Of a stretch of 64,000 bases of DNA, positions 21,160-37,037 are shown in pieces (position 1 is the first letter of the stretch; each line of letters begins with the position of its first letter). The notes under the pieces were generated by a model. It searched no databases and had not been told where the DNA came from. It worked only from the letters and a program-made list of their open reading frames with translations. The DNA lies in assembly GCF_900100605.1 (NCBI RefSeq), contig NZ_FNCN01000008.1, positions 1 through 64,000 on the forward strand, given 5' to 3'. The DNA is from Sinosporangium album. GTDB lineage: Bacteria > Actinomycetota > Actinomycetes > Streptosporangiales > Streptosporangiaceae. The position numbers and the translations under genes were made by a program.

Positions 21160-22041
21160 ATGATCACATATGACGAAGCCCGGAGGAACGGTGTCATCAC
21201 CGCCCTGGCCCAGGTTTTCGATTCCGAGGCCAAGAGTTACGCGCTTCTGGAGGACATGGGCGTCGACCGCACCCGACTTCCCCACTTCGGCTCCCTCGCC
21301 GCGGAGTTCTTCTGGCGGCAGGTGGTGCGGGAACTCGCCCACGGCATGGCCGAGCCCGGCCTGACCGAGCTGGTCGACACCGCATACCGCCTCTATCCGG
21401 GCAATGAGGTCTTCCGGCGCTACTCCGGCGCGGCCCCCTCCCCCGCGGCGCCCCCGGCTGCGCCCGGGGCGACCCGGCCGCTGCGGGTGCTCTGCCTGCA
21501 GTCCGCCCCCGGCAACACGGCCGAGCTGCGGCTCGACCGCGAATACCGGGAGATGCTGCGCGTGGCCGAGACCCGCACCGCCCGCGGGCTTGAGGTGGTC
21601 GTCTCCCCCGCGACCCGCGCCGACGACATCCAGCGCCGCCTGCTGTCGGGCTCGTGGGACGTGGTGCACTTCTCCGGCCACGGCACAAGCGATGGGCGGC
21701 TGCTGTTCGAGGACCGCTGGGGGGACGACTACCCGGTGTCGGTCGAGGTCCTCGCCGAGGTCTTCGAGGCCGCCGCGGGCACGCTGGAGTGCGTGGTGCT
21801 GGCGAGCTGCTACAGCGGGGCCTACGCCGCCGAGCTGCTGCGTTGCGCCCGTGCCGTCGCGGGGTCGAGCACGCCGATCTCCGACGACTGCGCGATCGCG
21901 TTCGTCGAGGGGTTCTACGAGGCACTGGCGGAGGGCCGCGACGCGCGGAAGGCGTTCGACAACGGCAAGAGCCGTATGAGGCTGCTCGGGTGCGGTTCCG
22001 GCGACATGCACTTCGAGGCGAGGGAGGGCCATGAGCGGTGA
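21160..22041 (+). CDS. EAD1-CHAT caspase-like protease
   Basis: A 293-residue protein. Residues 8-90 form an effector-associated EAD1-type domain ('ITALAQVFDSEAKSYALLED ... YPGNEVFRR'), a death-like adaptor that pairs with matching domains. A Pro/Ala linker leads to a CHAT protease domain with catalytic His174 in 'HFSGHGTSDG' and Cys217 in 'LASCYSGAYAAEL'. CHAT proteases of conflict systems cleave target proteins once triggered. It opens the rightward operon. An in-frame ATG at 21124 adds only 12 residues of poor quality. The same EAD1 type recurs in the E2 fusion encoded three genes downstream. Confidence 0.88.
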   Translation: MITYDEARRNGVITALAQVFDSEAKSYALLEDMGVDRTRLPHFGSLAAEFFWRQVVRELAHGMAEPGLTELVDTAYRLYPGNEVFRRYSGAAPSPAAPPAAPGATRPLRVLCLQSAPGNTAELRLDREYREMLRVAETRTARGLEVVVSPATRADDIQRRLLSGSWDVVHFSGHGTSDGRLLFEDRWGDDYPVSVEVLAEVFEAAAGTLECVVLASCYSGAYAAELLRCARAVAGSSTPISDDCAIAFVEGFYEALAEGRDARKAFDNGKSRMRLLGCGSGDMHFEAREGHER

Positions 22042-22732
22042 CCGCGCCCGCCTCCCCGGAGGTGTGCCTTCGGGGGCCGAGGCCGCCGGCCCGCCAGCGA
22101 GGAGCACGGTGAAGAGCACGGCGGAGAGCACGGCGGAGAGCACGGCGGAGAGCCTGGTGAGGAGCTTCGAGGCGGGGCTGCGGCTCGGGCGCGACCCGGC
22201 CAACCTCCTGCCCGAGGGGCGGGCCCGCACCACGTCGGGGTCGCCGTGGTGGCCGAGCGAGCGCTGCCCCGTATGCCGCCACAGCTATCGCATCGGCGAC
22301 GACGTGTGGGTGTCCATCGAGAACGGCCGTCTGGTCGTCAGACATGACATGCCCACGTTGAGCTGCCAGTTCCCGGAAAACGCCACGCCTGTGGAGGGGA
22401 CTCCGGTTCTTGAGGCTTTCTACGCCGCACTCGACGCGGCGAATCCGCCTCCAAGAAACTTTGTTGTAGAGCGTTTAAACCCGAGAGATATGCTCTTCGA
22501 TGCTCGAAGGCCCTACCGTGTCCAATGCGTAGGTTGTCCGCGTACCTTCCGCCCATATGAAGTCGTGGCATTCTGCCCCTGCAATCCGGAAGAGCCGAAA
22601 TGCAGATTACGGGCACACCGCGATCCCGGTGCGGGCCTGACCTGTTTCGACGCGCTCATCAGCGACAAACGGCGGCGGCACTGCATGCTGAGTTTCAAGA
22701 AACTCTCATCTCAGCGGTCCGAGGGCTGGTGA
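22031..22732 (+). CDS. Zinc-ribbon protein of the ubiquitin-like operon, with a TTA codon
   Basis: A 233-residue protein overlapping the CHAT gene by 11 bp. The N-terminus carries four S-T-x-E repeats from a 12-bp tandem repeat. Two zinc-binding-like groups follow: CPVCRH near residue 78, and 'CVGCPRTF ... FCPCNPEEPKC' at about 165-195. It probably serves as an adaptor or reader for the tagging system; no catalytic motif is visible. From about 22430 to 22620 the composition drops in GC, with AGA, GTT, GTA and an in-frame TTA codon at 22475-22477, unusual for this genome. A lower-confidence alternative is a recombined gene. Confidence 0.65.
   Translation: MSGDRARLPGGVPSGAEAAGPPARSTVKSTAESTAESTAESLVRSFEAGLRLGRDPANLLPEGRARTTSGSPWWPSERCPVCRHSYRIGDDVWVSIENGRLVVRHDMPTLSCQFPENATPVEGTPVLEAFYAALDAANPPPRNFVVERLNPRDMLFDARRPYRVQCVGCPRTFRPYEVVAFCPCNPEEPKCRLRAHRDPGAGLTCFDALISDKRRRHCMLSFKKLSSQRSEGW
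22099..22152. repeat. 12-bp tandem repeat in the zinc-ribbon gene
   Basis: GAGCACGGCGGA is repeated three times after a variant first copy. It encodes the STAE-type repeats at the protein's N-terminus. Confidence 0.7.
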
Positions 22733-23733
22733 TGCGGCGCTACACCCGCCACAGCGGCATTCCCGGCTGGAACCAGGAACGCCTGGCCTCCTCGTCCGCG
22801 GTCGTCATCGGGATGGGTGCGCTCGGCAGCGAGGTCGCCCGCATGCTCGCCCAGAGCGGGGTGGGCCACCTCGTCCTCTGCGACGGCGACACGGTGAGCG
22901 AGTCCAATCTCAACCGCGGCTCGCTGTACGGCGCCACCGACGTGGGCATGGCCAAGGTCGATGCGGCGGCGGCCCACCTGTCCGCGATCAACCCCGGTGT
23001 CCACGTCGACCCCCGGCCCACCTGGTCGTCGTGCGGGGTGGGGCTGAGCGAACTGCGCGACGCCGACGCCGTGCTGAGCTGCCTGGACAGCCGCGCCGCG
23101 CGGGTGGAGCTGGCGCGGCGCTGCAACCTGGCGGGGGCGGCCATGCTGGACGGCGGCACCTGGCCGTGGGGCGGCGAGGTGCGGCTCTACACGCCCGACG
23201 GGGCGTGCTACGGCTGCGCCCTCGACGACGCGGGGCGGGCGGAGTCCGACGAGGCCGTGCGGTGCGGGGCGCCGCAGAACGGCGCCGCCTCCGCGGCGTC
23301 GGCGCCGGTGTCCGCGCTCATCGGCTCGCTCATGTCGGCGACGGCGATCCGGATGCTCCTCGACCTTCCGGTGCGTCCCGGTGTGGTCAGCGTGGACGCG
23401 ACGCTCCTGTCGAGCCACCGGGTGCGGGCGGAGCGCGACCCGGCCTGCCCGCTGCACCTCACGATCCCCGCCAAGGCCGTGGAGCGGTCGCCGTACAGCA
23501 GCGACGCGCTCGTCAGGCTGCTGCTCGCCCGGCTTGAGCCCGGCGAGACGGTGCTCACCTGGGCCGACTTCCCCTCACCCGACGACGCCGCGGCCAGGCT
23601 GATCCAGTTGCGCGACGCCGCGCCGGACCAGCGGCTGCGGGACCTCGGGGTCGCTCCCGGGGAGATCCTCACGGTGGTGCGTGAGGGCCGTCCCGACCGC
23701 TACATCGAACTCGCCCGAGGAGGCCGCCGATGA
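22732..23733 (+). CDS. E1-like ThiF-family adenylyltransferase
   Basis: A 333-residue E1-type enzyme that would adenylate the C-terminus of a ubiquitin-like protein. It has the nucleotide-binding G27-x-G-x-x-G32, the 'CDGDTVSESNLNRG' motif (D51, D53, N59, N61, R62) and one Cys pair C159-Y-G-C162, with a lone C239 where a second pair would be expected. C178 ('VRCGAPQNG') is a candidate thioester Cys. Its ATG overlaps the zinc-ribbon stop (TGATG), and its own end overlaps the E2 fusion start, so the set is translationally coupled. The C-terminal 80 residues are an extra domain. Confidence 0.88.
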   Translation: MRRYTRHSGIPGWNQERLASSSAVVIGMGALGSEVARMLAQSGVGHLVLCDGDTVSESNLNRGSLYGATDVGMAKVDAAAAHLSAINPGVHVDPRPTWSSCGVGLSELRDADAVLSCLDSRAARVELARRCNLAGAAMLDGGTWPWGGEVRLYTPDGACYGCALDDAGRAESDEAVRCGAPQNGAASAASAPVSALIGSLMSATAIRMLLDLPVRPGVVSVDATLLSSHRVRAERDPACPLHLTIPAKAVERSPYSSDALVRLLLARLEPGETVLTWADFPSPDDAAARLIQLRDAAPDQRLRDLGVAPGEILTVVREGRPDRYIELARGGRR

Positions 23734-25292
23734 AGCCGGAATACCTCACCGCGCTCTCCGTGGTGTTCGACAACCCCGCCAAGGCCACGGCGCTTCTGGA
23801 GGACATGAACTACCCGCGCGACCGGGTGCCGCCCTGGGACACGACGTCGCGCGCGTGGTGGTCGCGGGTCGTGCGGGAGATCGACGACGGCATCACCGAG
23901 GGCGGTTTCGCCGTGCTGTTCTCCTATGCGAGCCGGCAGTATCCGGGCAACAGGCCGTTCCGTGAGGCGATGCTCGACTATCCGCAGAGCCCGGCGCCCG
24001 CGGCTGAGGCCGTACCGGGGCCGGGGTTCCCCCCTCCGCCTCCCCTGGGCTCCTCGGGGGCGGCGGCGCAGCAGCCTTCCCCTCCCCCCAAGGCCGACCT
24101 CGGCGGGCCCCAGGTCGCCCCGCACTCCGACGAGTGGCCCACGATCACGCTCATCGGCAGCGACCGCAGCGACGACTTCATCCGCGAGGTCCGCAGACAC
24201 GACCCCTCGGCGCAGCTCTGCTACGCCACGCAGGGGCAGGCGTGTGTCGCGCTCTCCTTTACCGGGGTTCGTGCCCAGGAGGTCGCCGACCAGGTCGGCG
24301 CGGAGGTGAACCGGTGGAACGAGGACACCGAGGGGGACCGGGGGAACGAGCGCGCGGACGTGGAGTACGCGGTCTACCCGTTCCGCCCCTACGCGCTGCG
24401 CGAGATCACGGTCTACGGGCCCGACGGGGAGGGCTTCCTGCTCCACGGCGTGCCGTCGACGACGCCGGTGCGCGACATCCCGTGGGCGGTGCTGCAGCGC
24501 TACGCCGACGACGCGGTGCGCGACCGGCGGGGGCGCTTCCTGCGCACCACGGTGGACCTGATCGAGCCCGACGGGACCGCGCGGCGGCTCAACCCCGACG
24601 AGACCCTGCACGCCGCCAGGGTGCCGGACGGGGCGCACCTGCGGATCCACCCCGAGGCGACGGCCGGGGCGCACCCGTCGTCCTACCGGGAGATGGTGCT
24701 GGGGGCGCAGCGGCAGATCGAACGCTACGCCGAGCGGAACAAGGACTGGTTCCGCATCGTCGAGATCCGGCACCGGGAGCTGCCCACCAGGTATCTCATC
24801 GAGTTCGACGCGGCGGGTTTCGCCCCGCCGGAAAGGATCGACGACACTCCCGCGGAGCTGCTGAAGCCGCACCCGGTCGACGTGCACCGCGTGTCCATCG
24901 AGCTGCTGCGGGAGTTCCCGGTGCGCCCGCCGTGGGTGGTGTGGCGGACACCGATCTTCCACCCCAACATCCTGCGCCTGCCGCCCGGCGACGCGCGGGC
25001 CGGAGCGGTGTGCCTCGGGGCGCTCATGGACGCCTACCGGCCCGACCTGGACCTCGGGGACCTGTGCCAGATGCTCGTCAACATCGCCGCCTACCGGAAT
25101 TACGAGGTGCTGCGGCCGGACGAGCTGGGCGGCGAAGGCTACCTCGACAAGGTGGCCGCGCAGTGGGCCCGCTCGCCCGAGGGGCAGCGGCAGATCGAGG
25201 AGCGCGGCGGCACTCCGCGCACCGACCTGACCGGAAGCGATCAACCCGATATCCGCCGCCGACCCTTGGAGATCAGTACATGGGACACGTGA
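23730..25292 (+). CDS. EAD1 - ubiquitin-like - E2 (UBC) fusion protein
   Basis: A 520-residue, three-part protein. Residues 1-85 are an EAD1 domain ('LSVVFDNPAKATALLEDMNY ... YPGNRPFREAM') closely like that of the CHAT protease. A Pro-rich linker and a segment with a small alpha/beta look follow to about 220. Residues 224-310 look like a ubiquitin-like beta-grasp ('EITVYGPDGEGFLLHGV', 'DETLHAARVPDGAHLRIHPE'). Residues 320-470 are an E2 fold with HPN (411-413) and catalytic Cys428 in 'GAVCLGALMDAY'. It should accept a tag from the E1-like enzyme, and the shared EAD1 should recruit the CHAT protease. The domain boundaries are read by eye. Confidence 0.8.
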   Translation: MKPEYLTALSVVFDNPAKATALLEDMNYPRDRVPPWDTTSRAWWSRVVREIDDGITEGGFAVLFSYASRQYPGNRPFREAMLDYPQSPAPAAEAVPGPGFPPPPPLGSSGAAAQQPSPPPKADLGGPQVAPHSDEWPTITLIGSDRSDDFIREVRRHDPSAQLCYATQGQACVALSFTGVRAQEVADQVGAEVNRWNEDTEGDRGNERADVEYAVYPFRPYALREITVYGPDGEGFLLHGVPSTTPVRDIPWAVLQRYADDAVRDRRGRFLRTTVDLIEPDGTARRLNPDETLHAARVPDGAHLRIHPEATAGAHPSSYREMVLGAQRQIERYAERNKDWFRIVEIRHRELPTRYLIEFDAAGFAPPERIDDTPAELLKPHPVDVHRVSIELLREFPVRPPWVVWRTPIFHPNILRLPPGDARAGAVCLGALMDAYRPDLDLGDLCQMLVNIAAYRNYEVLRPDELGGEGYLDKVAAQWARSPEGQRQIEERGGTPRTDLTGSDQPDIRRRPLEISTWDT

Positions 25293-25296
25293 ACCA

Positions 25297-26409
25297 ATGA
25301 TCGCGGAGATCGAGCTGTACAAGGGGAGGCGCCGGACCTACTACGGACGCCTCGTGCTGCAGCAGGTGCTGTTCGAAGCGCTCAACGACGCCCATCCGGG
25401 GCTTCTGCCCCGGGCCGAGGACGTGGAGAAATCGGAGCGGTCGGAGCGCCCGAGATTCGTCCTGCATTTCCACGACGCCGAGGACACCGGCCGCATCCCC
25501 GGTGAACCCGAGGTGACCAACGTCCGGGCGGACTTCGGCCACCTGGACCTGCGCGTGCTGGTGGGAGGCGCGGTCGTGCACGAGCGGCACTACTCGGTGA
25601 GCGAGCTACTGGGAGACGTCCTGGCGAAGCTGCTTTCGCGCATCGACCCGGACGAACGGGTGTGGGGGTTCGCGATCCGGCATCCCGCCCTCGGCGCGAT
25701 GGCCCGCTCGCGCCGGGCCCCGGAGGTGGAGGGCGCGGTCGACATCGACCTGAAGGAGACGAGGAACCTGCCGTTCACGGTCCAGCGGATCGAGGAGCGC
25801 CAGGACGCCGTCGATCCGGCGAGCCTGGGCATCTCCCCCGGCAGGCTCGGCCCGATCAACGTGATCATGTCGGAGGAGGTCTGCGATCTGCTGGCCGAAG
25901 GGCTGCCACTGTCGACGTCGATCGAAGAGGGCGGGTTCCTGCTGGGCAGGCTGAGCCCCGCCGCGGGCGCGCCCGACCGGCTCATGGTGGAGGTCACGCA
26001 CGTCACGCCCGCCGAGCGGTCCGGCGCCTCGGCCACGCATTTCACCTTCACCGGCGACTCGTTCACCGCGGTCAACAGGCTGATCGTGGAGCGCGGCCAG
26101 GGCGAGGACCTGGTGGGGTGGTACCACACGCACCTGTTCTCCGCGGCCGTCGCGATGAGCACCGGAACGGGACTGTCGGGCACCGACGTGGACCTGCATT
26201 TCGCGACCTTCAGGCGGCCCGGACAGGTGGCGGGCCTCATCAACCTTCACGAAGACACCCGGCTGGTCAGGTTCTACGGGCGGGTAGGCGACCGGATGGC
26301 GGAATGCGGGGTGTGGAGCCGCGATGAGCGCGGTCGATACAGCATGCGACGTGATGCTCTGGGCCGTCACCGAGGCGGCGACCCGCCGCGACGCGCCGGG
26401 ACACGGTGA
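25297..26409 (+). CDS. JAB/JAMM-type metallo-deubiquitinase-like peptidase
   Basis: A 370-residue protein. The N-terminal ~160 residues are an unassigned domain. The C-terminal half is a JAB domain with Glu210/211 ('SIEEGGFLLGRL'), H277-T-H279 ('VGWYHTHLF') and S294-x2-D297 ('LSGTDVDLHF'). The gap between HxH and SxxD is 14 residues rather than the usual seven, so the active-site loop is enlarged. It should cut ubiquitin-like tags or precursors using zinc. It starts 4 bp after the E2 fusion. Its last 28 residues overlap the next gene and look poorly constrained. Confidence 0.83.
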   Translation: MIAEIELYKGRRRTYYGRLVLQQVLFEALNDAHPGLLPRAEDVEKSERSERPRFVLHFHDAEDTGRIPGEPEVTNVRADFGHLDLRVLVGGAVVHERHYSVSELLGDVLAKLLSRIDPDERVWGFAIRHPALGAMARSRRAPEVEGAVDIDLKETRNLPFTVQRIEERQDAVDPASLGISPGRLGPINVIMSEEVCDLLAEGLPLSTSIEEGGFLLGRLSPAAGAPDRLMVEVTHVTPAERSGASATHFTFTGDSFTAVNRLIVERGQGEDLVGWYHTHLFSAAVAMSTGTGLSGTDVDLHFATFRRPGQVAGLINLHEDTRLVRFYGRVGDRMAECGVWSRDERGRYSMRRDALGRHRGGDPPRRAGTR

Positions 26410-27226
26410 CCTGTCCGGGGCCGCCGACCTGGCCGACCCGCCCGAGGAGCTACGCGTGTCGCTCGGCCGGCTGGCCGCCGTCACCGCGGCGCGGCTGCGC
26501 CTCGGCCCGCCTCCGCTGGGCGACGGGCCGGGCGGCGCGGTCGGGCCCGGCGCGGCGCTGCTGGCCGCGGCCGTCGGCGCGCGCCACCACTTGGCGGCCT
26601 CTGTCGACGTGCTGAACGCGGCCCGGCTGCCGACGGCCGCCGACGGCGCGGCGGAGGCCGGTGGCTGGGAGCTGGCCGTACGGCACGGCGTCGCCGAGGC
26701 GGCTCTCGCCGTACCCGACCTGGACCCCGACCTCGCGGACCTGCTGCGCGACTGCTCTCCGCTGACGGCCCTGCTGGACCATCCGACGCCCGAGGGGGAA
26801 CGGGAGGCGGAGCTGCTGCTCACCCGCAGGCTGCTGCACCATCCGGACGGGTGGCGGCTGGCGGCGCTGGCGTTGGCCGAGCCGCCCGCCGGGGCCGCTC
26901 AGGCCGTGTGGCGGTCGGGCCTGCTGTCGCGGTGCCGCCGGGTCAACCTGGCGTTCGTGCTGGACGTCTATGAGATGGGACTGTCGCTGTTCGCCGCCGA
27001 GCACCGGCGGCGGCTGCGGGCCGCGCGGCGGCTTCTGTCCGGCGCAGGCCGGGGTCGCGCGGTGGACCCCGACGCCGTAGCGGGGACGGCGCTGTGGTGG
27101 CGGGCCCTGGCGGAGATCGGGAAGACCAACCCCCGCGCGATCGGGCGCAGGCGGTGGATCACCGCCGAGCACGCCCAGGGGATCGAGCTGTACCGCGCAC
27201 TTCGACGCTGGGAGGCGGCCTCGTGA
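26324..27226 (+). CDS. Helical protein of unknown function in the tagging operon
   Basis: A 300-residue Ala/Leu/Arg-rich, probably all-helical protein that overlaps the JAMM gene by 86 bp and is coupled to the AAA gene by a GTGA overlap. The C-terminal part 'RAIGRRRWITAEHAQGIELY' is the best-structured sequence. GGAG seven bases before ATG 26324 supports the start despite the long overlap. I recognise no motif. Its fixed place between the JAMM peptidase and the AAA ATPase suggests a scaffold or substrate adaptor joining the two modules. Confidence 0.6.
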   Translation: MSAVDTACDVMLWAVTEAATRRDAPGHGDLSGAADLADPPEELRVSLGRLAAVTAARLRLGPPPLGDGPGGAVGPGAALLAAAVGARHHLAASVDVLNAARLPTAADGAAEAGGWELAVRHGVAEAALAVPDLDPDLADLLRDCSPLTALLDHPTPEGEREAELLLTRRLLHHPDGWRLAALALAEPPAGAAQAVWRSGLLSRCRRVNLAFVLDVYEMGLSLFAAEHRRRLRAARRLLSGAGRGRAVDPDAVAGTALWWRALAEIGKTNPRAIGRRRWITAEHAQGIELYRALRRWEAAS

Positions 27227-29073
27227 TTCCACTCCGCGTGGTCTATACGGCCGAACGGAACCGCCGGGACCTGGCCGCGAGCTCGCGTGAGACCATGCTC
27301 GCGGCGGCGCTGCACGTGTCGGGATGCGTCCTGCTGGAGCCGCTGCGCTCCGGCTGGCGCCAGTTGCCGATGTCGGCGTTCCGCCTGACGTTCATTCCGG
27401 TCGACCAGGTGGGCCCCGGCACTCCGCTGTATGCCGCCGACGGGTCTCCGGCGTCGGTGGGGGCCGGGTTCGGGCAGGTGGGCGACCTGACCGAGCCGGA
27501 CCCGTCGCAGCGGCCGGTCGGCATCACCGACGAGGCGGCCACCCGCCTGGCCTACGAGCCGGAGATCGCCGAGGTGGCCTCGCTGCTGCGCGCGGACCTG
27601 TCGGTGCTGGTGGTGTCGGACAAGATCGTCGTGCCGTACCTCGCCGAGCACATCGTGCGGCGCGCGGGCCGCGAGGCGCTGATCGTGGACGCCTCCGGCG
27701 ATGACGACGACGAGGAGGACGGCGGGCCGCTGTCGGGCCTGCCGGCGGCCGGTTCGACGCGGCAGCGGCAGATGGCGCGGCTGCGCACACTCATCCGGGC
27801 CGCCAAGCCCGGACATGTCATCGTCATTCCGCATCTGGACCTGCTGGCGGGCGGAGCGGATTCGGGGCTGTCCGCGGAGGCCCGCGAGGTGACCGAGCTG
27901 CTGTACGCCTCGGCCGACCGGGTGGTGCTGGCGTTCGCCGACCTGTCGCTGCGGGTGCCCGAGGTGCTGGCGGCCCGGTTGAGCCGGAGGCTGGCGCTGG
28001 AGGGCAGCCCGCGCACGGTGTGCTTCCCCGGCGGCGGCGAGGCCCCGCTGGAGCGGGCGCTGGTCACCGAACAGGAGGCCATGCGGTTCGCCGGGCTGGA
28101 GTCCGCCGACTTCTACAAGCACGTGGCGGGCCTGAACCCGGTACGGCTGCGCCAGGCGATGCGCTACGCGATGCAGGTCCACGAGGGCAACCCGAACCCG
28201 CGCGTGGAGGACCTGCGGGACACGATCCGCTCGTTCAAGACCCACCTGGTCACCAACTTCGAGATCCCCAAGATCACGTTCGCCGACATCGGCGGCTACG
28301 ACCAGGTGAAGGCGGAGCTGCAGGAGGCGCTGCACGTGATGGAGGCGTCGCAGTTCCTGCCCGAGGCCGACCGGCAGCTCAAGGGCGAGATCGTGCCGCG
28401 GGGGTTCATCTTCCACGGCCCGGCGGGCACCGGGAAGACCCTGCTCGCCAAGGCCATCGCCAACGAGATGAATGGCACGATCCAGGTCGTGTCCGGCCCC
28501 GAGGTCACCAGCAAGTGGGTGGGGGAAGGCGAGGGCAAGGTGCGCGAACTGTTCGCCGAGGCCCGCAGGAACGCCCCCTCGGTGATCGTGTTCGACGAGT
28601 TCGACTCCATCGCCGCCCGCAGGTCGAGCTGGGAGGACGGCGGAAGCCGGGCCGCCAACGCGATGGTCGCGCAGATCCTCACCGAGATGGACGGCTTCCG
28701 GCCCGACGTGCCGATGCTCGTCATCGGCACGACCAACCGCATCGACATCATCGACCCGGCGCTGCTGCGCCCCAGCCGGTTCCGCAGCTTCCACATCGAC
28801 CTGCCCGACGTCGAGGGGCGGCGGGCCATCGTCCACGTGCATGCCCGCCGCTACCACATCGAGGTGGGCGAACTCCTCGAACCCATTGCGAAAGCGACAG
28901 AAGGCTGGAACGGCGACCAGATCGCCTCCATCTTCCGCGGGGTGTACATCGCCAAGTGGCTCCGCCGCGAAAGCCTGGACGCCCCCGAAGAGCTGGCCAC
29001 GCGCATCGGCGCGATCATCGGCGGCATCCAGAAGGCTGCCCAGGACATGCGCGTCAGCCAGGAAGGACAGTAA
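27223..29073 (+). CDS. FtsH/Cdc48-like AAA+ ATPase
   Basis: A 616-residue AAA+ protein. The first ~350 residues are system-specific, including an acidic 'DDDDEEDGG' stretch. The ATPase core follows with Walker A GPAGTGKT near 399-406, the pore-type 'KWVGEGEGKVRELF', Walker B VIVFDEFD near 453-460, and the arginine-finger region 'PALLRPSRF'. There is no FtsH protease HEXXH, so it would unfold or remodel rather than degrade. It starts at GTG 27223 overlapping the previous stop, and its TAA overlaps the MoxR ATG. It corresponds to the 'FtsH' member of ternary conflict systems. Confidence 0.87.
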   Translation: MIPLRVVYTAERNRRDLAASSRETMLAAALHVSGCVLLEPLRSGWRQLPMSAFRLTFIPVDQVGPGTPLYAADGSPASVGAGFGQVGDLTEPDPSQRPVGITDEAATRLAYEPEIAEVASLLRADLSVLVVSDKIVVPYLAEHIVRRAGREALIVDASGDDDDEEDGGPLSGLPAAGSTRQRQMARLRTLIRAAKPGHVIVIPHLDLLAGGADSGLSAEAREVTELLYASADRVVLAFADLSLRVPEVLAARLSRRLALEGSPRTVCFPGGGEAPLERALVTEQEAMRFAGLESADFYKHVAGLNPVRLRQAMRYAMQVHEGNPNPRVEDLRDTIRSFKTHLVTNFEIPKITFADIGGYDQVKAELQEALHVMEASQFLPEADRQLKGEIVPRGFIFHGPAGTGKTLLAKAIANEMNGTIQVVSGPEVTSKWVGEGEGKVRELFAEARRNAPSVIVFDEFDSIAARRSSWEDGGSRAANAMVAQILTEMDGFRPDVPMLVIGTTNRIDIIDPALLRPSRFRSFHIDLPDVEGRRAIVHVHARRYHIEVGELLEPIAKATEGWNGDQIASIFRGVYIAKWLRRESLDAPEELATRIGAIIGGIQKAAQDMRVSQEGQ

Positions 29074-30236
29074 TGGCCTGGGAACAGCACACGCTGCAGA
29101 TCATCCGGCGGCTGCGGACGGTCCACCAGGAGATCAGCGCGGACTACGTCGAGCGCGACCTGGTCGTCGAACTCCTGCAGCTCGCCGCGGTCACCCGCGA
29201 GCACCTGCTGCTGCTGGGCCCGCCCGGCACGGCCAAGACCGACCTCGTGGAGCGGTTCTGCCTCGGCCTCGGGGCGCGGCGGTACCGCTACCTGCTGACC
29301 CGCTTCACCGAGCCGTCGGAGATCTTCGGGCCGCTCGACTTCGCGAGATTCCAGCAGGGCGAGTACCACATCCAGACCTCCGGCATGCTGCCGGAAGCCG
29401 AGATCGCCTTCCTCGACGAGGTGTTCCAGGGCAGCAGCGCGATCCTCAACACGCTGCTCACGCTGCTCAACGAGCGCCGCTTCCACAACGGCCCCCACAC
29501 CCAGCACGCGCCCCTGATCAGCGTGTTCGGCGCGAGCGCCGAACTGCCGGAGGACCCCGCCCTGAGCGCCTTCGCCGACCGCTTCCTGATCCGCGCCAGA
29601 GTCGAGCCCGTCGGCGAGAGCCACCTGCCCGACCTGCTGGAGGCGGGCTGGGGCCGGGAGCGCGACCGGCTGTCCTCCCGGAACGGCGCCGCCCCCACCC
29701 CGCTGGTCGACACCGCCGAACTGGCCCAGCTGACCGGCAGGCTCGGCCGCGTGGACCTCGACGTCATCCGGCCGCTGTACGAGGAGCTGATCCGCGAGCT
29801 GCGCGGCCAGGGGGTGGCGCTGTCGGACCGCCGCCTGGTGCGGGGGCTCAAACTGGTCGCCGGAGCGGCCCTGCTGAGCGAAAGGGACGTGGCGGCGGCC
29901 GAGGACCTGTGGCCGATCGCCCACGCGTGGGCCGACCCCGCCGACGCCGACCTGGTCGCCGACATCGTGGCGGAACGCTCCTCCTCCGGGGAGGCGGCCC
30001 GCGAGCGGAGCAGGCCGACCAGCGAGATCGTGGCCGAGGCGCGTTTCGAGGCCGAACGGGTCAGCGCGCCCTCCTACGACGTGACCCGGGGGTCGATCGA
30101 CGCCACGCTGCGGACCTTGAGCAGGCTCCGGCGCGAACTGCTCACCGGCCCCCAGGACCCCCCGCGCCGGGCAGGGACCGACGAGGTCGACCAGTTGATC
30201 GACTACGTGATGAGCCACTACCAGAACATCAGCTAG
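29073..30236 (+). CDS. MoxR/RavA-type AAA+ ATPase
   Basis: A 387-residue MoxR-family ATPase. Walker A is GPPGTAKT (49-56), followed by 'LLTRFTEPSEIFGPLDF' and Walker B-type 'AEIAFLDEVFQGSSAILNTL', which are MoxR hallmarks. MoxR proteins act as chaperone-like ATPases with von Willebrand factor A partners. A vWA-like domain is present at the end of this operon. The TAATG overlap with the upstream AAA gene shows tight coupling. The last 100 residues are helical with no assigned domain. Confidence 0.9.
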   Translation: MAWEQHTLQIIRRLRTVHQEISADYVERDLVVELLQLAAVTREHLLLLGPPGTAKTDLVERFCLGLGARRYRYLLTRFTEPSEIFGPLDFARFQQGEYHIQTSGMLPEAEIAFLDEVFQGSSAILNTLLTLLNERRFHNGPHTQHAPLISVFGASAELPEDPALSAFADRFLIRARVEPVGESHLPDLLEAGWGRERDRLSSRNGAAPTPLVDTAELAQLTGRLGRVDLDVIRPLYEELIRELRGQGVALSDRRLVRGLKLVAGAALLSERDVAAAEDLWPIAHAWADPADADLVADIVAERSSSGEAARERSRPTSEIVAEARFEAERVSAPSYDVTRGSIDATLRTLSRLRRELLTGPQDPPRRAGTDEVDQLIDYVMSHYQNIS

Positions 30237-30255
30237 TCCCGCAGAGGGAGAGGCC

Positions 30256-31047
30256 ATGTGCAATCCACGTCGCATCCGGATCCGGGCGACACGCACCATC
30301 GCCGAGCGGTGGAGCGCGGAGATCCGGCGTACGGCACGCGTGCGCGGCAGCGTCACCGGAACGGCGCGCATGTCGCAGCCGCTCGCCTCGATGCTGCCCG
30401 ACGCGCCGAGACGTGCCTTCGAGCTGGTCGTGGCGCGCCACCCCGAGTGGCGGCAGGTGGGCGACTGCCACCTCGCCGACGTACCGGGCGGGCGGATCGC
30501 CTACTGGCCGGACACGGGAGAGCTGGAGATCAGCGTGGAGCTGTCCACCGAGATCGAGGCGGAAGGGGAAGGTGTCGTCACCATCGGCGGCGAGGTGCGG
30601 GAGGACGCCACGGCCGAAGCCGAGGCGTTCTACTACTCCGACGGCTACAGCGGGCGGACCCGGTCGGCGGCCAGGCGCCAGGCGCGGCAGGCCGCCGAGG
30701 CCGAGGCCGACCAACGGGCGGCCGAGCTGGCCGCGACCCGGGCCGCCGTGGCCGGGGAGCTGGCGCGGGCCGCGGGCGAGGGGGGCGAGGAAGCGGTCGA
30801 GGCCGCCCGGGCCGACGCCGAACGCCGCCTCGACCGGCAGCGCGCCCGCGTGGCCGACGACCTGAACCGGCAGGCCGAGGAACAGCTCGACGATCTGCAC
30901 CGCCGTACGCTGCGGGTCGTCTTCGCCACGGTCGCCGAAGGCTACCGGGCCGCCACGATCGCCTACGCCCGCGCCAACGGCGCGGAGAACATCAGGGAGA
31001 GCGACGAGGGCGGCGTCATCGAGATCCAGTTCGAGATGGAGGCGTGA
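30256..31047 (+). CDS. Ternary-system accessory protein with coiled coil
   Basis: A 263-residue protein, start supported by GGGAGAGG before ATG 30256. A conserved N-terminal half ('HPEWRQVGDCHLADVPGGRI', 'GELEISVELSTEIEA') is followed by an Ala/Arg/Glu-rich coiled coil (about 140-235) and a C-terminal 'ENIRESDEGGVIEIQFEME'. Its position after FtsH- and MoxR-type ATPases fits the 'FtsH ternary system X-domain' proteins, which have no known enzymatic role. It is probably a structural or substrate-binding part of the ATPase assembly. Confidence 0.6.
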   Translation: MCNPRRIRIRATRTIAERWSAEIRRTARVRGSVTGTARMSQPLASMLPDAPRRAFELVVARHPEWRQVGDCHLADVPGGRIAYWPDTGELEISVELSTEIEAEGEGVVTIGGEVREDATAEAEAFYYSDGYSGRTRSAARRQARQAAEAEADQRAAELAATRAAVAGELARAAGEGGEEAVEAARADAERRLDRQRARVADDLNRQAEEQLDDLHRRTLRVVFATVAEGYRAATIAYARANGAENIRESDEGGVIEIQFEMEA

Positions 31048-31052
31048 AGGCC

Positions 31053-31316
31053 ATGCGGTTCCGAGTCACCCTCCGCGTCGACCCCGAGACCGGGGAGACG
31101 CAGGTGCAGGTGGACGACATCAGCGTGGGGCGGCGGCTCGCCGACCACGACGCCAGGCACGAGGAACTCGCCCAGGAGTTCCTCGACGTCCTCGACCCGC
31201 AGGCCGACCTCGACGAGATCAGGAGGGCGGCCCCGCTGCTGCCCGCCGCCGCGCCGGGGCCGGAGGAGGAGGCCGCGCGGACGCGCCGCGCCGAAGAGCT
31301 CGGAGGTGCCTCGTAG
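31053..31316 (+). CDS. Small ternary-system accessory protein
   Basis: An 87-residue protein beginning MRFRVTLRVDPETGETQVQV, which reads as a beta hairpin, with a helical acidic tail ending 'ARTRRAEELGGAS'. Its first line resembles the C-terminal strand region of the preceding protein. It lies 5 bp downstream of that gene and its stop TAG overlaps the apparent beginning of the TPR-like frame. The function is unknown; it is likely a subunit of the same complex. Confidence 0.55.
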   Translation: MRFRVTLRVDPETGETQVQVDDISVGRRLADHDARHEELAQEFLDVLDPQADLDEIRRAAPLLPAAAPGPEEEAARTRRAEELGGAS

Positions 31317-31954
31317 CCGGGTCGATCGAGCTGTACAACCGGGCCGCGGACTGCTTCGAGCGGTCGGGGTTCCCCCTTGACGCCGCCCGGTGCCGCGCCG
31401 CCGCCGGCCTGCCGCTGGCCGCGGCCGAACTCTACTTTCGCGGAGGAGATGTCATGGAGGCCGCGCGCTGCTACCGGCTCGCGGGCCGACCCGCCGAGGC
31501 CGAGTCCTGCTATCTGCGGGCAGGCCGCGTCGGGGAGGCCGCCGCCTGCTGGGAGGAGCGCGGCGACCTGCTGCGGGCCGCGCTGGTGCTCGCGGTGCAC
31601 GGAGAGCAGGAGCATGTACGGCAGGCCGCGGTGCTGGCGACCGCGGCCCGCACCAGGGACGACAACCAGCGCCTACGACGCGACATCGTGCTCGCCCTGT
31701 GCGGGGACCGGCTGGGCACGGGCGGGCGGCGCCTGCCCGCACTCCTCACCGACCTCGAACGGGACCTGCCCGACACGCACGGCAGAGCCGTACTCGTCGA
31801 GTGGGCGGTGCTGGCGGCGGACACGCTCGGCAGGCACGACCTGTCGGCCGCGCTGCACGCGGCGGCCCACCGCGGCGGCGACCGGGGGGCGGCGACCCGG
31901 TGGCGCGCCTGGGCCGAGCGCACGCTCGGCGGCTCGGCGGGGATCCCGCACTGA
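31313..31954 (+). CDS. TPR-like repeat protein without a canonical start codon
   Basis: The frame is coding by composition and repeats: 'AARCRAAAG', 'EAARCYRLAGRPAEAESCYL' and 'EAAACWEERGDLL' are short TPR/SEL1-like helical repeats. The earliest ATG (31454) would cut off the first repeats. No ATG, GTG or TTG occurs in frame back to 31053. A strong ribosome binding site GGAGGTG (31302-31308) precedes GTA at 31313, one base change from GTG, so either a rare start, a mutation or a sequencing error is likely. The product, about 213 residues, ends where the next gene's ATG overlaps (TGATG). Confidence 0.6.
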   Translation, partial: VAGSIELYNRAADCFERSGFPLDAARCRAAAGLPLAAAELYFRGGDVMEAARCYRLAGRPAEAESCYLRAGRVGEAAACWEERGDLLRAALVLAVHGEQEHVRQAAVLATAARTRDDNQRLRRDIVLALCGDRLGTGGRRLPALLTDLERDLPDTHGRAVLVEWAVLAADTLGRHDLSAALHAAAHRGGDRGAATRWRAWAERTLGGSAGIPH

Positions 31955-33582
31955 TGGCCCTGTTCCGCCGCCGAGGCCGCGACCGGGGCGGCACGGACCC
32001 GGCCGGGGCGAAGCCCCGGTTCACGGTCACGCGGCTGCCGAAGTCCCCCGCCGATCCCCCGCAGCCCGCCCATGCCGAACCTCCGCCGCCCGCTCCCCCG
32101 TGGCCGGCCCCCACCGTCGAGCCGCCCCCGGTGTGGCAGGGGACGCCGGCGCCGGCGCGGGCGCGCACGGCCGGATGGTTCTCCGGGCCCGGCGCGGCGC
32201 TGGCGTTCGCCGGATCGACCGGCGAACCCGACGGCTGCTACACGCACCCGGAGCTCTCCGGCGTCTGGGTGCTCTCGCCGCTGCCGCCCGACGAGGGGAT
32301 CGCCCTGGTCGAGGCGCTCGGGGGTTTCGCCTACACCGAACGCGGCGGGCGGTTCGCCCCCGCGGGACGGCCCGGCGGCAGGCCGCCTCCGCGCGACGTC
32401 GCCGACCTGCGCCCGATCACGCCGGTCGAGCTCGCCGCGGCGCTCCCCCCCGCGCCTGCGCCGCTGGGACGGCACCGGGAGATCATCGTCGTCACCGAGA
32501 CCCCGCTGATGCGCTCGGTCGTCGAACGCTGCCTGCGCGTCGACGCGACCGTGGCGATGGCCGCGCTGTGGCGGCGCCCGCTGTACGGCGACGCCCCGCA
32601 GACCGGCGCCGCCCTCGTGTACGCCCACGCCGAGGGAAGCGGGCCGCTGCCCGACGCGCTGCTGCGCGGCCTCGCCGGGCTGCCGCGCACGCTCGTGTGC
32701 CGCGAGTCGGGCCCGCGCCTGCTGACCGACGTGCGGCTGGCCCTGCCGCTGGACGACGAGTGGCTCGCCGCGACGGTGCCCGACGGGCAGCAGTGGATGC
32801 TCGGCGCCGCCGACGCGGGGGCGTTCGCCATCGTGATCGGCACCGCCGTACAGGCGCCCGTGGAGACCGTGTTCGCCGTCGCCGCCCCGCCGCGCGCGGG
32901 CGAGCTGCCCACCGTGGCCCACCCGGTGAAGGTACGGCTGACGCCGACCCGCAGGCCGGGTCCGGTCGACGCGGTGCTCGTCCACGACGACGAGCTGGAC
33001 CGGCTCCGGGAGTTCCTCGCGGGCAGGCCGCTGACGGAGACCGGGGTGATGGTGCTCGGCGACGGCGCCCACCTGCTGACCGAACCCTCCGGTCTGCTGA
33101 CCGACCTTCCCCTCGGCACGCCCCTGTCCAGGCTGGCCGGCGAGGCGCTCTATGTGGAGGCCGGATTCGAGCTCTACCCGCCGATCGGTCCGACGGCGCG
33201 CGCGCGGGCGTTCGGGCTCGCCCCGGGGCTGGTCGCGGTGGCGACCCGGCTCGGCTCCTACCTGCTGTCGCCCCGCGAGCACGCGGTGCCGGTGTGGTCG
33301 CTGTGGCTCGCCGAGCCGCCCGCCGTACGCGCCGGGCTCTCCGCGCGGGCACGCGCCCTGCTCGACCTGCACGCCGGACCGGCGGCGCACACGGAGGGGC
33401 CGCGCGACGAGCCCGCCGCGGCGAGACCCGACCGGGGGCGGCTGCTGACCGAGGCGCTCCGGCTGGAACTCGACGGCGACATCGCCGAGGCCGCCCAGCG
33501 GCTTGAACAGGCGGGCGAGCTCTACCGCGCGGCGCGGCTGTTCGAGCGGGCGGCGGGCACCCGGAGGGGTGAGCGGGCGTGA
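31954..33582 (+). CDS. Large accessory protein of the MoxR-vWA-propeller system
   Basis: A 542-residue protein starting MALFRRRGRD. A Pro-rich stretch (30-70) is followed by a mixed alpha/beta body ('EIIVVTETPLMRSVVERCLR', 'TGVMVLGDGAHLL', 'GFELYPPIGPTARARAFGLAPG'). The C-terminal 45 residues ('AAQRLEQAGELYRAARLFER') are a TPR-like hairpin similar to the preceding gene. In family terms it is likely one of the 'bpX' proteins of MoxR-vWA-beta-propeller systems; I cannot say which. It is tightly coupled on both sides by 1-4 bp overlaps. Confidence 0.55.
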   Translation: MALFRRRGRDRGGTDPAGAKPRFTVTRLPKSPADPPQPAHAEPPPPAPPWPAPTVEPPPVWQGTPAPARARTAGWFSGPGAALAFAGSTGEPDGCYTHPELSGVWVLSPLPPDEGIALVEALGGFAYTERGGRFAPAGRPGGRPPPRDVADLRPITPVELAAALPPAPAPLGRHREIIVVTETPLMRSVVERCLRVDATVAMAALWRRPLYGDAPQTGAALVYAHAEGSGPLPDALLRGLAGLPRTLVCRESGPRLLTDVRLALPLDDEWLAATVPDGQQWMLGAADAGAFAIVIGTAVQAPVETVFAVAAPPRAGELPTVAHPVKVRLTPTRRPGPVDAVLVHDDELDRLREFLAGRPLTETGVMVLGDGAHLLTEPSGLLTDLPLGTPLSRLAGEALYVEAGFELYPPIGPTARARAFGLAPGLVAVATRLGSYLLSPREHAVPVWSLWLAEPPAVRAGLSARARALLDLHAGPAAHTEGPRDEPAAARPDRGRLLTEALRLELDGDIAEAAQRLEQAGELYRAARLFERAAGTRRGERA

Positions 33583-36500
33583 TACAGCAGACGGTCTTCT
33601 CTGTTCCGCACGCCCGGTGCCTGGCCCTGGCGCCCGACTCCTCGGCGCTGGTCAGCCTGGCGGGCGACGGGCTGACGCTGCGCGAGGCGGGCGACCACGC
33701 GGTGTGGTCGGCGGCGCTGCCGGAAAGCGCGGGCGAGCGGATCGTCTGGTCGGCCGACGGCGACCATCTGTACGTCGTGTCGGGCGGCGGCGTCGCCCGC
33801 CGCGATCCGGCGAGCGGCCGGCCGGTGCCGCTGTCCGGCCCCCTCGACGATCGGGACGTCACCGCCTTCGCCCTGTCCTGCGACGGGCGGCTCGTCGCGG
33901 TCGGCGGCGCGGCCGGGGCGCTGCGTGTGCTGTCGGCGCGGACCGGCGAGGTGCTGACGCTGCCAGGCGGCCCCGACCCGGTGACGGCGCTGGCGTTCCG
34001 GCCGGGCACCGACGACCTGTGCGCGGCCAGGCCCGGGGTGCTGCAGTTCTGGAACGCGGCGAGCCGCATGATGTACACCTCGGCGCCGACGGCCGCGCCG
34101 CTCCGCCACCTGGCCTGGTCGCCCGACGGCACCCGGCTCGTGGGGGCCGGACCCGCCGAGGTCGTCGCGTTCGACCCGCGCGACGGCACACCGCTCGCCC
34201 GGCTTCCCGTGGGAGAGGTCCGGGCCCTGGCCTTCAGCAGGACCGGTGACACGCTGCTGGTCGCCGTCGAGGGCGCGGTGCGCCTTCTCGACCGGAACCT
34301 GGCGAGCATGGGCGAGGCGGAGGCCGACGTCGTAACGCCCGGTGGTCTGCACGTCTCGCAGGGCGGGCTTGTCGCCGTACGCACCGGCGACGACACGGTG
34401 AGCCTGTGGACCCTGCCCGACACCCTGCCTCCCGGCGGCGGCTCCTCCTCTTCGGCGCTGCGCCGGTGGGCGATACGGCACGGCCTCACCCTCGGCCGCG
34501 CCCCCGCCTCCCTGGCCGAGGCCGGTTCGCCCCCCGTCGTCCCCACGCTCATGCCCGAAGGCGGCGCGGCGTTCACGTGGTGGCCCGACGGCCGTACGGC
34601 GTGCCGCGAGATCGGCGGCGCGGTCGTACGGCTCTCGCCTCCCGGCGTCCACCCCGCCTGGCGCGCCGCGATGAGCAGCCCGGTGCGCGAGCTGGCCGTG
34701 TCGCCCGACGGCCGCTTCGTGGCCGCGGTCTGCGAGGAGCGGAACGGCCACACGCTGCACCTGCTCGACGGCGCCACCGGAGCCCTCACGGCGTCGACGC
34801 CCGCCGCACCCGCCCTGGCCTGGACCCGGTCCCCCGGCGGCGAACCGCTTCTGGCCATGCCCGAGGACGGCCCCGGCGCCCCGCGCGAGATCGTGGTCAT
34901 GTCTCCGGCCGAGGGCTACCAGCCGAGGCGGCTGCCCATGCACGACGGCCTGGCGCGGCTCGCCTGGTCGCCCGACGGCAGGCGGCTGGCCGCGACCGGC
35001 CCCGGCCGGGTCGTCCTGTGGGATGCCGGCCGCTGGGTCCGCAGCCGCGCCCCCCTCACCGCGGGCCCGCACGGGCGGCTCCTCGGCGACGTGGCCTGGT
35101 CGCCCGACGGGCGGTGGCTGGCCGCGGTCGCCCTGTCGGGACAGCCTCCGGCGGCGCAGGTCCCGGCGCAGGTCCCGGCGCAGGTCGCCGCGTGGGTCGT
35201 GGTGTGGGACACCGCCACCTGGGAGACGGCCGCGACACTGGGGCCGTGCGCGCCGCCGGGCCGCACGGCCGTCCTCGCCTGGTCGCCGGGCTCGGAGATG
35301 ATCGCGTTCCCCTCGCCGGACGGCGGCGGCGTCGAGCTGTGGAGCATCCGGTCGCACAACAGGCTCCGCCTGCTCGCCCCTCCGCAGCCGTCCACCGCGC
35401 CGGTCCGCGGCGTGCACTGGTCGGCCCTCGGCGACCTGCTCGTCGTCGCCCACGACGACGGCGCCGCCGTCCAGTGGGACTTGTTCGCCGACCACATCCC
35501 CGCAGGCGGGCCCGGGGCGGCCCTCCCCCACCCTCACGACACCTTGGTACACATGTCGGCCGCCGCGGCGTCGATCGGCTCCTGCGCCCCGCTGTCCCTC
35601 CTGTCCGACCTGCTGTGCCTGGTGGCGGGGAAACCACCGGCCGACGAACGGCTCCGCCCGTTCGCACGCCACCCGAGGCTCGCGGAGCTGCGCGCGCTGC
35701 GCTGGCCGCCGGCCGCTCAGATCGGCCTCGCCGTACTGCTGGCCGCCGACGTGCCCGGAGATCCGCGCTACGAACCGCCGCCGCACACCCACCGGGAGGA
35801 GCTCGCCGCGGCCATGGCCCGTGTGCTGTCGGGGTCGCCGCGGCCCGTCGCGGCGCCCGAGCTGAAGGCGGGACCGGGCGGCCTGTTCGACGGCGTCGAC
35901 GACCACGTGCTGGGCCTGCTGTCGATGCTCGGGCCCGAGGCCGTGGCCGAGGACCCGGCGCTTCCCGCCCGGCTGCGGCACCAGCGGCACGCGCTGCCCG
36001 CGCTGTCCCCGGCGCACCGCAGACTGCTCGACCTGCGGATCGCGGTGTCCCGCAGCGGCCGGGCGCAGGGCCGCGGCGGAGGGGGCGAGGGGCGCGCGGG
36101 CCTCGCCCGGCACGGCCACGTCAACGCCCTGCTGCCCACGCAACTCGCGCTGCCGCCCGCCGCCCTCGCCGCCCGGCACATCCGCGACGAGCTGCTCTAC
36201 CGCACGCAGCGCGGCTCGGTGCCGCCGCAGCCGCGCGCCATGGTGCTCGTGCTGGACGACACGCCGGCCGCGCACGGCCCGGCGGGGGTCACGCTGCGGG
36301 TCTGCGCCCATCTGCTCGCCAGGTCGCTGCTGCGCCGGGGCCTGCCCGGGACGCTGGTGACGCTGGGCGAACCGGCGCGGGCGCACCCCCTCGGCCACCC
36401 CGCCGACCTCACCGCCCTGTGGCTCGCGTCGAGTGTGGCACGGCCCGACCTCGCGGGGGCGTTCCGGCAGATCGCCGCGCTCGCCCCCCGGCTGTCGGAT

Positions 36501-36731
36501 CCGGTGGCGGGGCCGCCGCGCGTCGTGGTGCTGACGCACGCGTTCCTCGATCTCGGCTCGCACGAGACGGACGGCCACGAGGTGTTCGCCGTACGGGTGC
36601 GGTATCGCGACGCGGGCGGGGCGAGGCGGAAGGCCAGGCCGCTCACCGGACCGCGCACGCTGACGCTCCCGTGCGACCCGCGCCCCGACGAGATCGGCCG
36701 CGTGCTCGCGGCGCTGCTCAGCGCCGCATGA
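33579..36731 (+). CDS. Beta-propeller protein with C-terminal vWA-like domain
   Basis: A 1050-residue protein starting at a GTG that overlaps the previous stop. Residues 1 to ~640 contain many WD40/propeller-type blades marked by 'LAWSPDGTRLVGAG', 'LAVSPDGRFVAAV', 'DVAWSPDGRWLAAVAL' and 'IVWSADGDHLYVV'. The middle is helical. The final 170 residues read as a degenerate vWA domain: 'MVLVLDDTPAAHGPAG' replaces the DxSxS metal site, and 'PRVVVLTHAFLDLGS' follows. This would be the vWA partner of the MoxR ATPase and closes the 15.6-kb rightward operon. Confidence 0.75.
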   Translation: MIQQTVFSVPHARCLALAPDSSALVSLAGDGLTLREAGDHAVWSAALPESAGERIVWSADGDHLYVVSGGGVARRDPASGRPVPLSGPLDDRDVTAFALSCDGRLVAVGGAAGALRVLSARTGEVLTLPGGPDPVTALAFRPGTDDLCAARPGVLQFWNAASRMMYTSAPTAAPLRHLAWSPDGTRLVGAGPAEVVAFDPRDGTPLARLPVGEVRALAFSRTGDTLLVAVEGAVRLLDRNLASMGEAEADVVTPGGLHVSQGGLVAVRTGDDTVSLWTLPDTLPPGGGSSSSALRRWAIRHGLTLGRAPASLAEAGSPPVVPTLMPEGGAAFTWWPDGRTACREIGGAVVRLSPPGVHPAWRAAMSSPVRELAVSPDGRFVAAVCEERNGHTLHLLDGATGALTASTPAAPALAWTRSPGGEPLLAMPEDGPGAPREIVVMSPAEGYQPRRLPMHDGLARLAWSPDGRRLAATGPGRVVLWDAGRWVRSRAPLTAGPHGRLLGDVAWSPDGRWLAAVALSGQPPAAQVPAQVPAQVAAWVVVWDTATWETAATLGPCAPPGRTAVLAWSPGSEMIAFPSPDGGGVELWSIRSHNRLRLLAPPQPSTAPVRGVHWSALGDLLVVAHDDGAAVQWDLFADHIPAGGPGAALPHPHDTLVHMSAAAASIGSCAPLSLLSDLLCLVAGKPPADERLRPFARHPRLAELRALRWPPAAQIGLAVLLAADVPGDPRYEPPPHTHREELAAAMARVLSGSPRPVAAPELKAGPGGLFDGVDDHVLGLLSMLGPEAVAEDPALPARLRHQRHALPALSPAHRRLLDLRIAVSRSGRAQGRGGGGEGRAGLARHGHVNALLPTQLALPPAALAARHIRDELLYRTQRGSVPPQPRAMVLVLDDTPAAHGPAGVTLRVCAHLLARSLLRRGLPGTLVTLGEPARAHPLGHPADLTALWLASSVARPDLAGAFRQIAALAPRLSDPVAGPPRVVVLTHAFLDLGSHETDGHEVFAVRVRYRDAGGARRKARPLTGPRTLTLPCDPRPDEIGRVLAALLSAA

Positions 36732-36735
36732 GTCG

Positions 36736-36810: not shown

Positions 36811-36826
36811 GCGGGCCGAGCGGGGG

Positions 36827-37030: not shown

Positions 37031-37037
37031 GTCTCGC

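Follow-up and report, generated by a model that had tools for sequence, protein, structure and literature searches.

Are a ubiquitin-like (Ubl) conjugation set and two AAA machines, encoded end to end on one strand, the parts of a single system, and if so, what might that system do? The question is raised by a locus of the actinomycete Sinosporangium album. The window analysed here is the first 64,000 nucleotides of contig C90 (NZ_FNCN01000008.1), from a host genome of 7.06 Mb that is high in GC and belongs to the same class as Frankia. Thirteen co-directional genes, g1 to g13, occupy 21160–36731 on the + strand, and a divergent membrane operon, m1 to m5, lies on the − strand beyond a spacer at 20921–21159 (bounded by the gene starts). 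Gene calls drew on open frames, on the composition of codon positions and on relatives for comparison. The locus is real, tightly organised and conserved, and is, as judged from its sequence, a known kind of predicted immune machinery, the complex type of FtsH ternary system. We consider it rather probable that it works as a conflict system in which an EAD1-Ubl tag, freed by a JAB isopeptidase and conjugated by E1, E2 and a RING-like protein, would recruit a protease by EAD1–EAD1 pairing.

The available text of Kaur, Burroughs, Iyer and Aravind (2020; PMC7159879) describes a ‘more complex’ FtsH ternary system in which a propeller-vWA protein, MoxR and FtsH are accompanied by a complete Ubl-conjugation set (JAB, E1, RING-type E3 and EAD1-Ubl-E2) and by a caspase-like effector that carries EAD1. 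Helical proteins private to the system also belong to it, as does a set for processing an associated peptide, which includes a radical SAM gene and a zincin-like metallopeptidase. The criteria given there include an FtsH-type protein with an inactive N-terminal half and a MoxR P-loop of the form GxxxTAK[ST], and it is proposed that the EAD1-Ubl tag recruits the EAD1-protease. The window resembles this description in its EAD1-caspase-like effector, EAD1-Ubl-E2 protein, E1, candidate RING-type E3 and JAB, as well as in its FtsH-type AAA, MoxR with GxxxTAK, propeller with a vWA-like end, helical proteins and peptide. It differs in that the peptide gene has no adjoining radical SAM gene and in that a divergent kinase/GTPase/membrane operon is constant in subtype A, to which the window belongs. 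Nine parts are matched by Pfam models specific to such systems (EAD1, fvmYukDl_N, fvmJAB_N, fvmX1, fvmX2, fvmX3, fvmX7, bpMoxR and fvmRadSAM-pep), and CHAT, ThiF, E2, AAA and WD40 by general ones. The preliminary description of this DNA had taken the Ubl and AAA sets for two separate systems joined here; the combination is already treated as one in the available text of PMC7159879, and the joining was dismissed as a novelty.

The evidence for a tag and its protease begins with g1 (21160–22041), an EAD1 adaptor followed by a CHAT (caspase-like) protease (Pfam EAD1 2.4e-17, CHAT 7.6e-14); at least 85% of 16 sequences share its His174 and Cys217. The Cys/His-rich protein g2 (22031–22732) has no Pfam or NCBIfam match and is a candidate prokaryotic RING-type E3 on account of two conserved sets, C79 C82 H84 H105 C112 and C166 C169 C182 C184 C191 H196 C205 C218, each kept in at least 85% of 19 sequences. 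It is followed by the E1, g3 (22729–23733; Pfam ThiF 2.2e-48), and by g4 (23730–25292), which is built as EAD1, a YukD-like N domain, Ubl and E2 (fvmYukDl_N 2e-32, EAD1 2.9e-10, UQ_con 1.9e-6). The E2 motifs of g4 are HPN at 411–413 and Cys428. A model of g4, with a mean predicted local distance difference test score (pLDDT) of 75.9, begins with a helical EAD1; a disordered stretch links it to a YukD-like domain, after which come a beta-rich Ubl and the E2. The VIA-align comparison covers the E2 part (residues 316–494), which resembles eukaryotic E2 enzymes (best Z 11.6, root-mean-square deviation 3.6, 137 aligned); the Ubl was assigned from the fvmYukDl_N match, a YukD match below the cut-off and the strand order of the model. 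The JAB/MPN isopeptidase, g5 (25297–26409), is matched by fvmJAB_N at 4.7e-62 and by JAB at 20.2 bits, below the cut-off of 22.5; E210/E211, H277, H279, S294 and D297 are invariant in 5/5. The active-site residues of CHAT, E2 and JAB are kept among relatives.

An Ala-Gly pair, Ala312-Gly313, forms the end of the Ubl (codons at 24663–24668, + strand) and is a candidate processing site. It is invariant in all 15 aligned g4 proteins and, in the model, falls within a low-confidence linker (310–316) between the last Ubl strand (303–308) and the E2. In ubiquitin, the C-terminal tail sits at the position corresponding to the linker after the last strand. Since the pair is both invariant and placed right after the last Ubl strand, a cut after Gly313 is suggested. 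Such a pair between Ubl and E2 was not found described in the available text of PMC7159879. Across the whole genome, g1 and g4 are the only two places where EAD1 is found, a restriction that fits a one-to-one pairing of tag and protease. In Dactylosporangium aurantiacum (L016:2845–7887), there are two tandem pairs of E1 and EAD1-Ubl-E2 genes. The second g4 has lost the E2 cysteine and kept HPN and Ala-Gly, so the functions of tag and E2 look separable in these sequences, and the Ubl half looks to have a role of its own.

The remaining genes of the + strand operon encode the AAA, fvmX and propeller proteins. The gene for fvmX1, g6 (26324–27226; 4.4e-99), overlaps that for JAB. It is followed by the FtsH-type AAA, g7 (27223–29073; AAA 2.5e-42), which has one active AAA domain: Walker A (399) and Walker B (455) occur once each, and neither is found in the N-terminal half; an HExxH protease motif is absent from g7 and from 22 AAA frames of 21 loci. 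Then come the MoxR AAA+ protein, g8 (29073–30236; bpMoxR 1.8e-85), with the P-loop GPPGTAKT; fvmX2, g9 (30256–31047; 5.8e-120), whose start is supported by a Pfam match that runs from residue 1; fvmX3, g10 (31044–31316; 4.5e-22); a TPR-like protein, g11 (31313–31954), with weak TPR matches under the cut-off; and fvmX7, g12 (31954–33582; 1.7e-106). The last, g13 (33579–36731), is a WD40-type beta-propeller (5.8e-21) with a degenerate vWA-like C-terminus, where a DDTPA-like motif and its region are conserved in a motif alignment and vWA has no Pfam match up to E 0.1.

How closely these genes are joined is seen from the junctions, which overlap or leave at most 19 bp, with one apparent exception. 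Overlaps are found at g1/g2 (11 bp), g2/g3 (4 bp with GTG 22729, or 1 bp), g3/g4 (4 bp), g5/g6 (86 bp, or 59 or 56 bp with later starts), g6/g7 (4 bp), g7/g8 (1 bp), g9/g10 (4 bp), g11/g12 (1 bp) and g12/g13 (4 bp); gaps are found at g4/g5 (4 bp) and g8/g9 (19 bp). At g10/g11, ATG, GTG and TTG starts would put g11 at 31454 and leave 137 bp. A true gap was dismissed: the g11 frame is open and homologous as protein from 31313 onward, and in 12 of the 14 subtype-A relatives g11 starts 4 bp inside g10. These 137 bp are therefore probably coding, with a non-canonical start codon. The claim of the preliminary description that 13 genes overlap or abut from the CHAT protease to the propeller thus stands. 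At the border between tagging and AAA genes, an in-frame g6 start lies 50–53 bp inside the JAB gene in all 14 subtype-A relatives. In the window, the fvmX1 match begins ahead of the JAB stop, so the overlap is required if the fvmX1 domain is complete.

Is this arrangement peculiar to one strain? A bait consisting of the N-terminal half of the FtsH-type protein alone, used as two peptide patterns against 84,980 species genomes, found at least 21 loci. Ubl-E2 and JAB matches share the locus in 19 of the 21, so the modules do co-occur beyond S. album. The exceptions, the Protofrankia locus L031 and L036 (a 5-kb contig of a Catenulispora metagenome-assembled genome, MAG), each have only an EAD1-like match to g4. 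Subtype A comprises the window and L016–L029, by the criterion of the 13-gene order and not of the divergent operon; L026 and L027 were assigned to it from partial order and the tree. Its hosts are Streptomyces (among them S. canus, L022, and S. griseomycini, L018), Dactylosporangium, Actinocrispum and one Streptosporangiaceae MAG. By open frame or tblastn, the 13-gene order recurs in 12 of the 14 subtype-A relatives, at about 31–57% protein identity, and it is because of this recurrence that we take the arrangement not to be chance. The remaining relatives are L026, which breaks off within g13 and lacks a match to g12, and L027, a contig of 10 kb. Subtype B (L030–L035) comprises four Frankia-group and two Streptomyces loci; its propeller gene is upstream or inverted in 3/6 and unseen in the locus in 3/6. 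The system is rare and patchy, given that fvmX1 is matched in 7 of 394 class genomes, 6 of them above the cut-off.

Subtype A has a second constant part, the divergent operon. The preliminary description had noted a GTPase operon on the same spacer, and its genes are indeed found in 15/15 subtype-A genomes. All five genes are on the − strand. The first, m1 (19781–20920), encodes a kinase-like protein (Pkinase 9.4e-9) with a C-terminal membrane segment; where kinases have HRD, the window protein has HRR, and the motif is disrupted in several relatives, as read by eye from the alignment. In m2 (18714–19784), an N-terminus with a conserved Cys precedes a DO-GTPase2-like GTPase (PF19993, matched in 8/8 aligned members, best 2e-11; the window copy scores 22.7 bits, under the cut-off of 27). 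The model of m3 (16604–18712; pLDDT 71) has an N-terminal alpha/beta domain and helical repeats, and hydropathy adds a C-terminal membrane segment; the protein is 545–741 residues long in complete relatives. No informative Pfam match was found for m3 in 10 members and no Foldseek match at E <= 0.001, the best (2.9e-3) being a designed protein. The membrane protein m4 (15328–16635, by alignment and hydropathy; start uncertain, perhaps 16203) has a coiled-coil-like tail, over which a weak match to the PADLOC model ZorA2 runs (E 0.039). Finally, m5 (14767–15324; alignment of 10, hydropathy) has a single membrane segment and an invariant AGWLFxDL, and no family match, including none to ZorB among PADLOC models. 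Pfam gave nothing for m4 or m5, and searches of PDB sequences with m2, m4, m5 and the small MLCG protein described below gave no lead.

A match to the window m3 is found by tblastn in 15/15 subtype-A and 0/6 subtype-B genomes. The GTPase gene m2 adjoins the system in 13 subtype-A relatives, and in the genome of L027 it is on a separate contig, L049, next to a g1/EAD1-cluster gene. With L025 left out of the flank counts for these two genes, m4 is present in 13/13 flanks and m5 in 12/12 that reach far enough. An open frame for m1 is present in 10 relatives, and tblastn finds the gene in L016 and L029; m1 and m2 are fused in L028 (a 708-aa frame, 1197–3323). The frame at L049:2823–4949 is also of 708 aa and, unaligned, is taken as a candidate m1-m2 fusion. 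Protein distances of the m operon and of the FtsH operon correlate at 0.76–0.91 (15 pairs from six representatives, the pairs not being independent). By hydropathy, membrane segments are predicted in m1, m3, m4 and m5, and in none of the window g1–g13; among relatives they are predicted in 9/10 called m1 frames, 12/12 m4 and 12/12 m5. Beyond m5, no gene is common to the window and its relatives (13 flanks). An extension of the operon to m6–m9 (leucine-rich repeat, phosphodiesterase-like and two radical SAM genes) was dismissed, as these have no relatives in the 13 flanks; the HemN-type radical SAM, weakly SPASM-like and phosphodiesterase-like genes lie at 10484–13554 (−) and are not conserved. 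In the available text of PMC7159879, linkage of a divergent operon to FtsH systems was not found.

How, then, might the parts work together? The parts, their order, the conservation of active sites and the EAD1 domain common to tag and protease are established by sequence. On the favoured account, the g4 polyprotein would be cleaved behind Ala312-Gly313 by JAB (or in another step). This would release a tag that consists of EAD1, the YukD-like domain and a Ubl whose C-terminal glycine is free. Attachment of the tag to target proteins would fall to E1, to the E2 half of g4 and to the RING-like protein, and the EAD1 of the tag would pair with that of the CHAT protease, which would then cut the tagged targets, or become active through clustering. 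The tag–protease complex may be assembled, thresholded or dismantled by MoxR, the propeller/vWA-like protein and the FtsH-type AAA. The trigger in subtype A may come from the divergent operon, as a membrane-anchored kinase-like/GTPase complex, and the infected or stressed cell would as a result be arrested or die. Tentatively, subtype A could be pictured as two-armed, with m1–m5, as a membrane-anchored kinase-like/GTPase/helical-repeat complex, forming an envelope sensor and switch that acts on the cytosolic Ubl-tagging arm and through it on the caspase-like protease; we hold this to be possible, with more doubt than belief.

Several observations weigh against this account. The cut after Gly313 is suggested by conservation, the recruitment of the protease is inferred from the common EAD1 domain, and the divergent operon may be the trigger on the basis of its linkage; no experimental study of an FtsH ternary system was among the matches listed in literature searches. 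Protofrankia coriariae (L031) has an FtsH-MoxR-fvmX block with no Ubl-E2 found in its draft genome. In subtype B a g1-like match is present in only 2/6, at other positions, and other effectors may for this reason serve in those loci. On the FtsH tree, a single change is enough to separate A from B; support for this is weak (45/43), and branches are long. The model PF20006 matches only 1/394 genomes, although G017, G233, G260 and G316 carry g4 homologues, from which it appears that PF20006 misses the type-B Ubl proteins. The inner g6 start is a candidate start, and an extra one is possible 1–22 bp past the JAB stop in L016, L023 and L026–L029. As to the divergent operon, the membrane segment of m3 is predicted in only 7/13 relatives, and an m3 profile matches 32/388 class genomes, most without an fvmX1 match. 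Moreover, the type-B genome of L034 (Frankia QA3, G233) encodes an m3-like protein about 1.1 Mb from its FtsH system, which limits the absence from type B to the window m3 by tblastn and to the neighbourhood.

Eleven of the m3 regions (L070–L080) were fetched; m2 is present in 10, m1-m2-m3 in 7 and all five genes in L075. FtsH, fvmX1 and JAB have no match in these regions (Ubl-E2 being outside the profile set), and L079 has one weak MoxR match. Around the G233 m3-like gene (L078), no m1–m5 frame was called. Neighbours of the stand-alone kinase-GTPase-m3 genes include an FtsW/penicillin-binding protein (PBP) fusion (L070) and a tubulin-like protein (L077). Because m3-like proteins occur in 32/388 genomes, mostly without fvmX1, the linkage to FtsH is, on these profile matches, one use of a wider module; m1–m5 looks like an independent membrane GTPase system that has become a constant partner of subtype-A FtsH systems.

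The same genes have been read differently. In the preliminary description, substrates that bear the tag go to the AAA rings, where they would be unfolded or remodelled, the protease being secondary. Such a hand-off is possible, and the coupling of the genes fits it: tagging and AAA genes stand together in 19/21 loci, the start of g6 inside the JAB gene in 14/14 ties them, and the AAA of g7 retains Walker A and B. That AAA nevertheless lacks HExxH, no Ubl-AAA fusion occurs in the loci mapped, and the AAA module is present in Protofrankia, whose draft genome gave no Ubl-E2; we judge this explanation unlikely, while giving it some weight. A different destination, the host proteasome, to which conjugation would send the targets, is suggested in the available text of PMC7159879 with related Ubl-Pup loci as support. 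No proteasome gene was found among the window genes scanned, a part of those in the window, and the host proteasome was not searched for; we regard this route as improbable.

It might also be argued that the modules simply adjoin, each under its own promoter and regulation, and do not form one functional unit. Streptomyces loci do have gaps of 39–72 bp at g7/g8 and 37–358 bp at g11/g12. A terminator or promoter splitting the modules had been named as the thing to look for, and a crude scan of 20700–37100, which actinomycete promoters may escape, gave no sigma70-like site and no + strand terminator; two terminator-like sites, both on the − strand, are no more than in shuffles. Against separation, the g5/g6 border can overlap in 14/14 subtype-A loci, a complete fvmX1 domain would require it to overlap in the window, and gene order is conserved across genera. 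There is accordingly little to recommend this view. The EAD1-tag account, with recruitment of the CHAT protease, is the one that we retain.

Likeness to other systems is partial. The DO-GTPase/GAP1 systems of PMC7159879 share, in the available text, a DO-GTPase2-like GTPase, membrane-bound partners and, in some actinobacterial members, a kinase, whereas the m operon has other partner genes and pairs divergently with an FtsH system. GAP1 has no named Pfam match in m3 (10 members) or in three m3 homologues elsewhere, a search that a divergent GAP1 could escape. The parts of PMC8195603 available describe another EAD1-linked Ubl system (TERNS3), and those of PMC11237479 mention a DO-GTPase in another context. 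The g3 E1 matches the PADLOC E1-E2 and BilD models over a partial stretch. The present locus is unlike the Bil and type II CBASS systems in that its E1 is free-standing, its E2 is fused to Ubl and EAD1, and it includes a protease as well as AAA modules; among those window genes that were scanned, no cyclase was found.

On the 3′ side, a gene convergent with g13 (36827–37036, −) encodes a small protein of 69 aa that ends in MLCG-COOH and matches fvmRadSAM-pep (PF20007, 1.2e-36). The MLCG protein is present as a single copy in 18/21 FtsH-system genomes (14/15 of subtype A, 4/6 of subtype B), at 51–72% identity, and in 6/384 class genomes, one match being weak; that of L031 is on a different contig from the FtsH-MoxR-fvmX block. 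A gene of 144–364 aa adjoins it in 11 subtype-A loci, some cut by the locus end, and for the two of these neighbours that were scanned the AmmeMemoRadiSam radical SAM model was best, once above and once below the cut-off. No radical SAM gene was found beside the window MLCG gene; a homologue (60%) is on another contig of the host genome. The genes m8 and m9 were dismissed as radical SAM partners of the peptide, being HemN-type and weakly SPASM-type and not conserved at their position. Where relatives have the radical SAM gene, the window has a gene at 37077–38192 (+) that matches a macro domain weakly (E 0.06). Between g13 and the MLCG gene, at 36732–36826, a 15-bp repeat (CGGCACCTCAGGAAT-like) recurs in several near-copies, as noticed by eye.

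Three things are added here to the known combination: a divergent membrane GTPase operon that is constant in subtype A, the Ala-Gly site and the duplicate with a dead E2. The predicted pathway is strikingly eukaryote-like for a bacterium, with a separate E1, an E2 with HPN, a RING-like protein and a JAB, and a caspase-like protease and two AAA machines appear to be connected to it. With the Ala-Gly site, the dead-E2 copy, the membrane operon and several Streptomyces carriers in hand, the proposal that the tag recruits the protease is open to direct testing in laboratory strains. If the two-armed reading of subtype A is true, it would describe a bacterial path from a membrane receptor to a ubiquitin-like tag and on to a protease.

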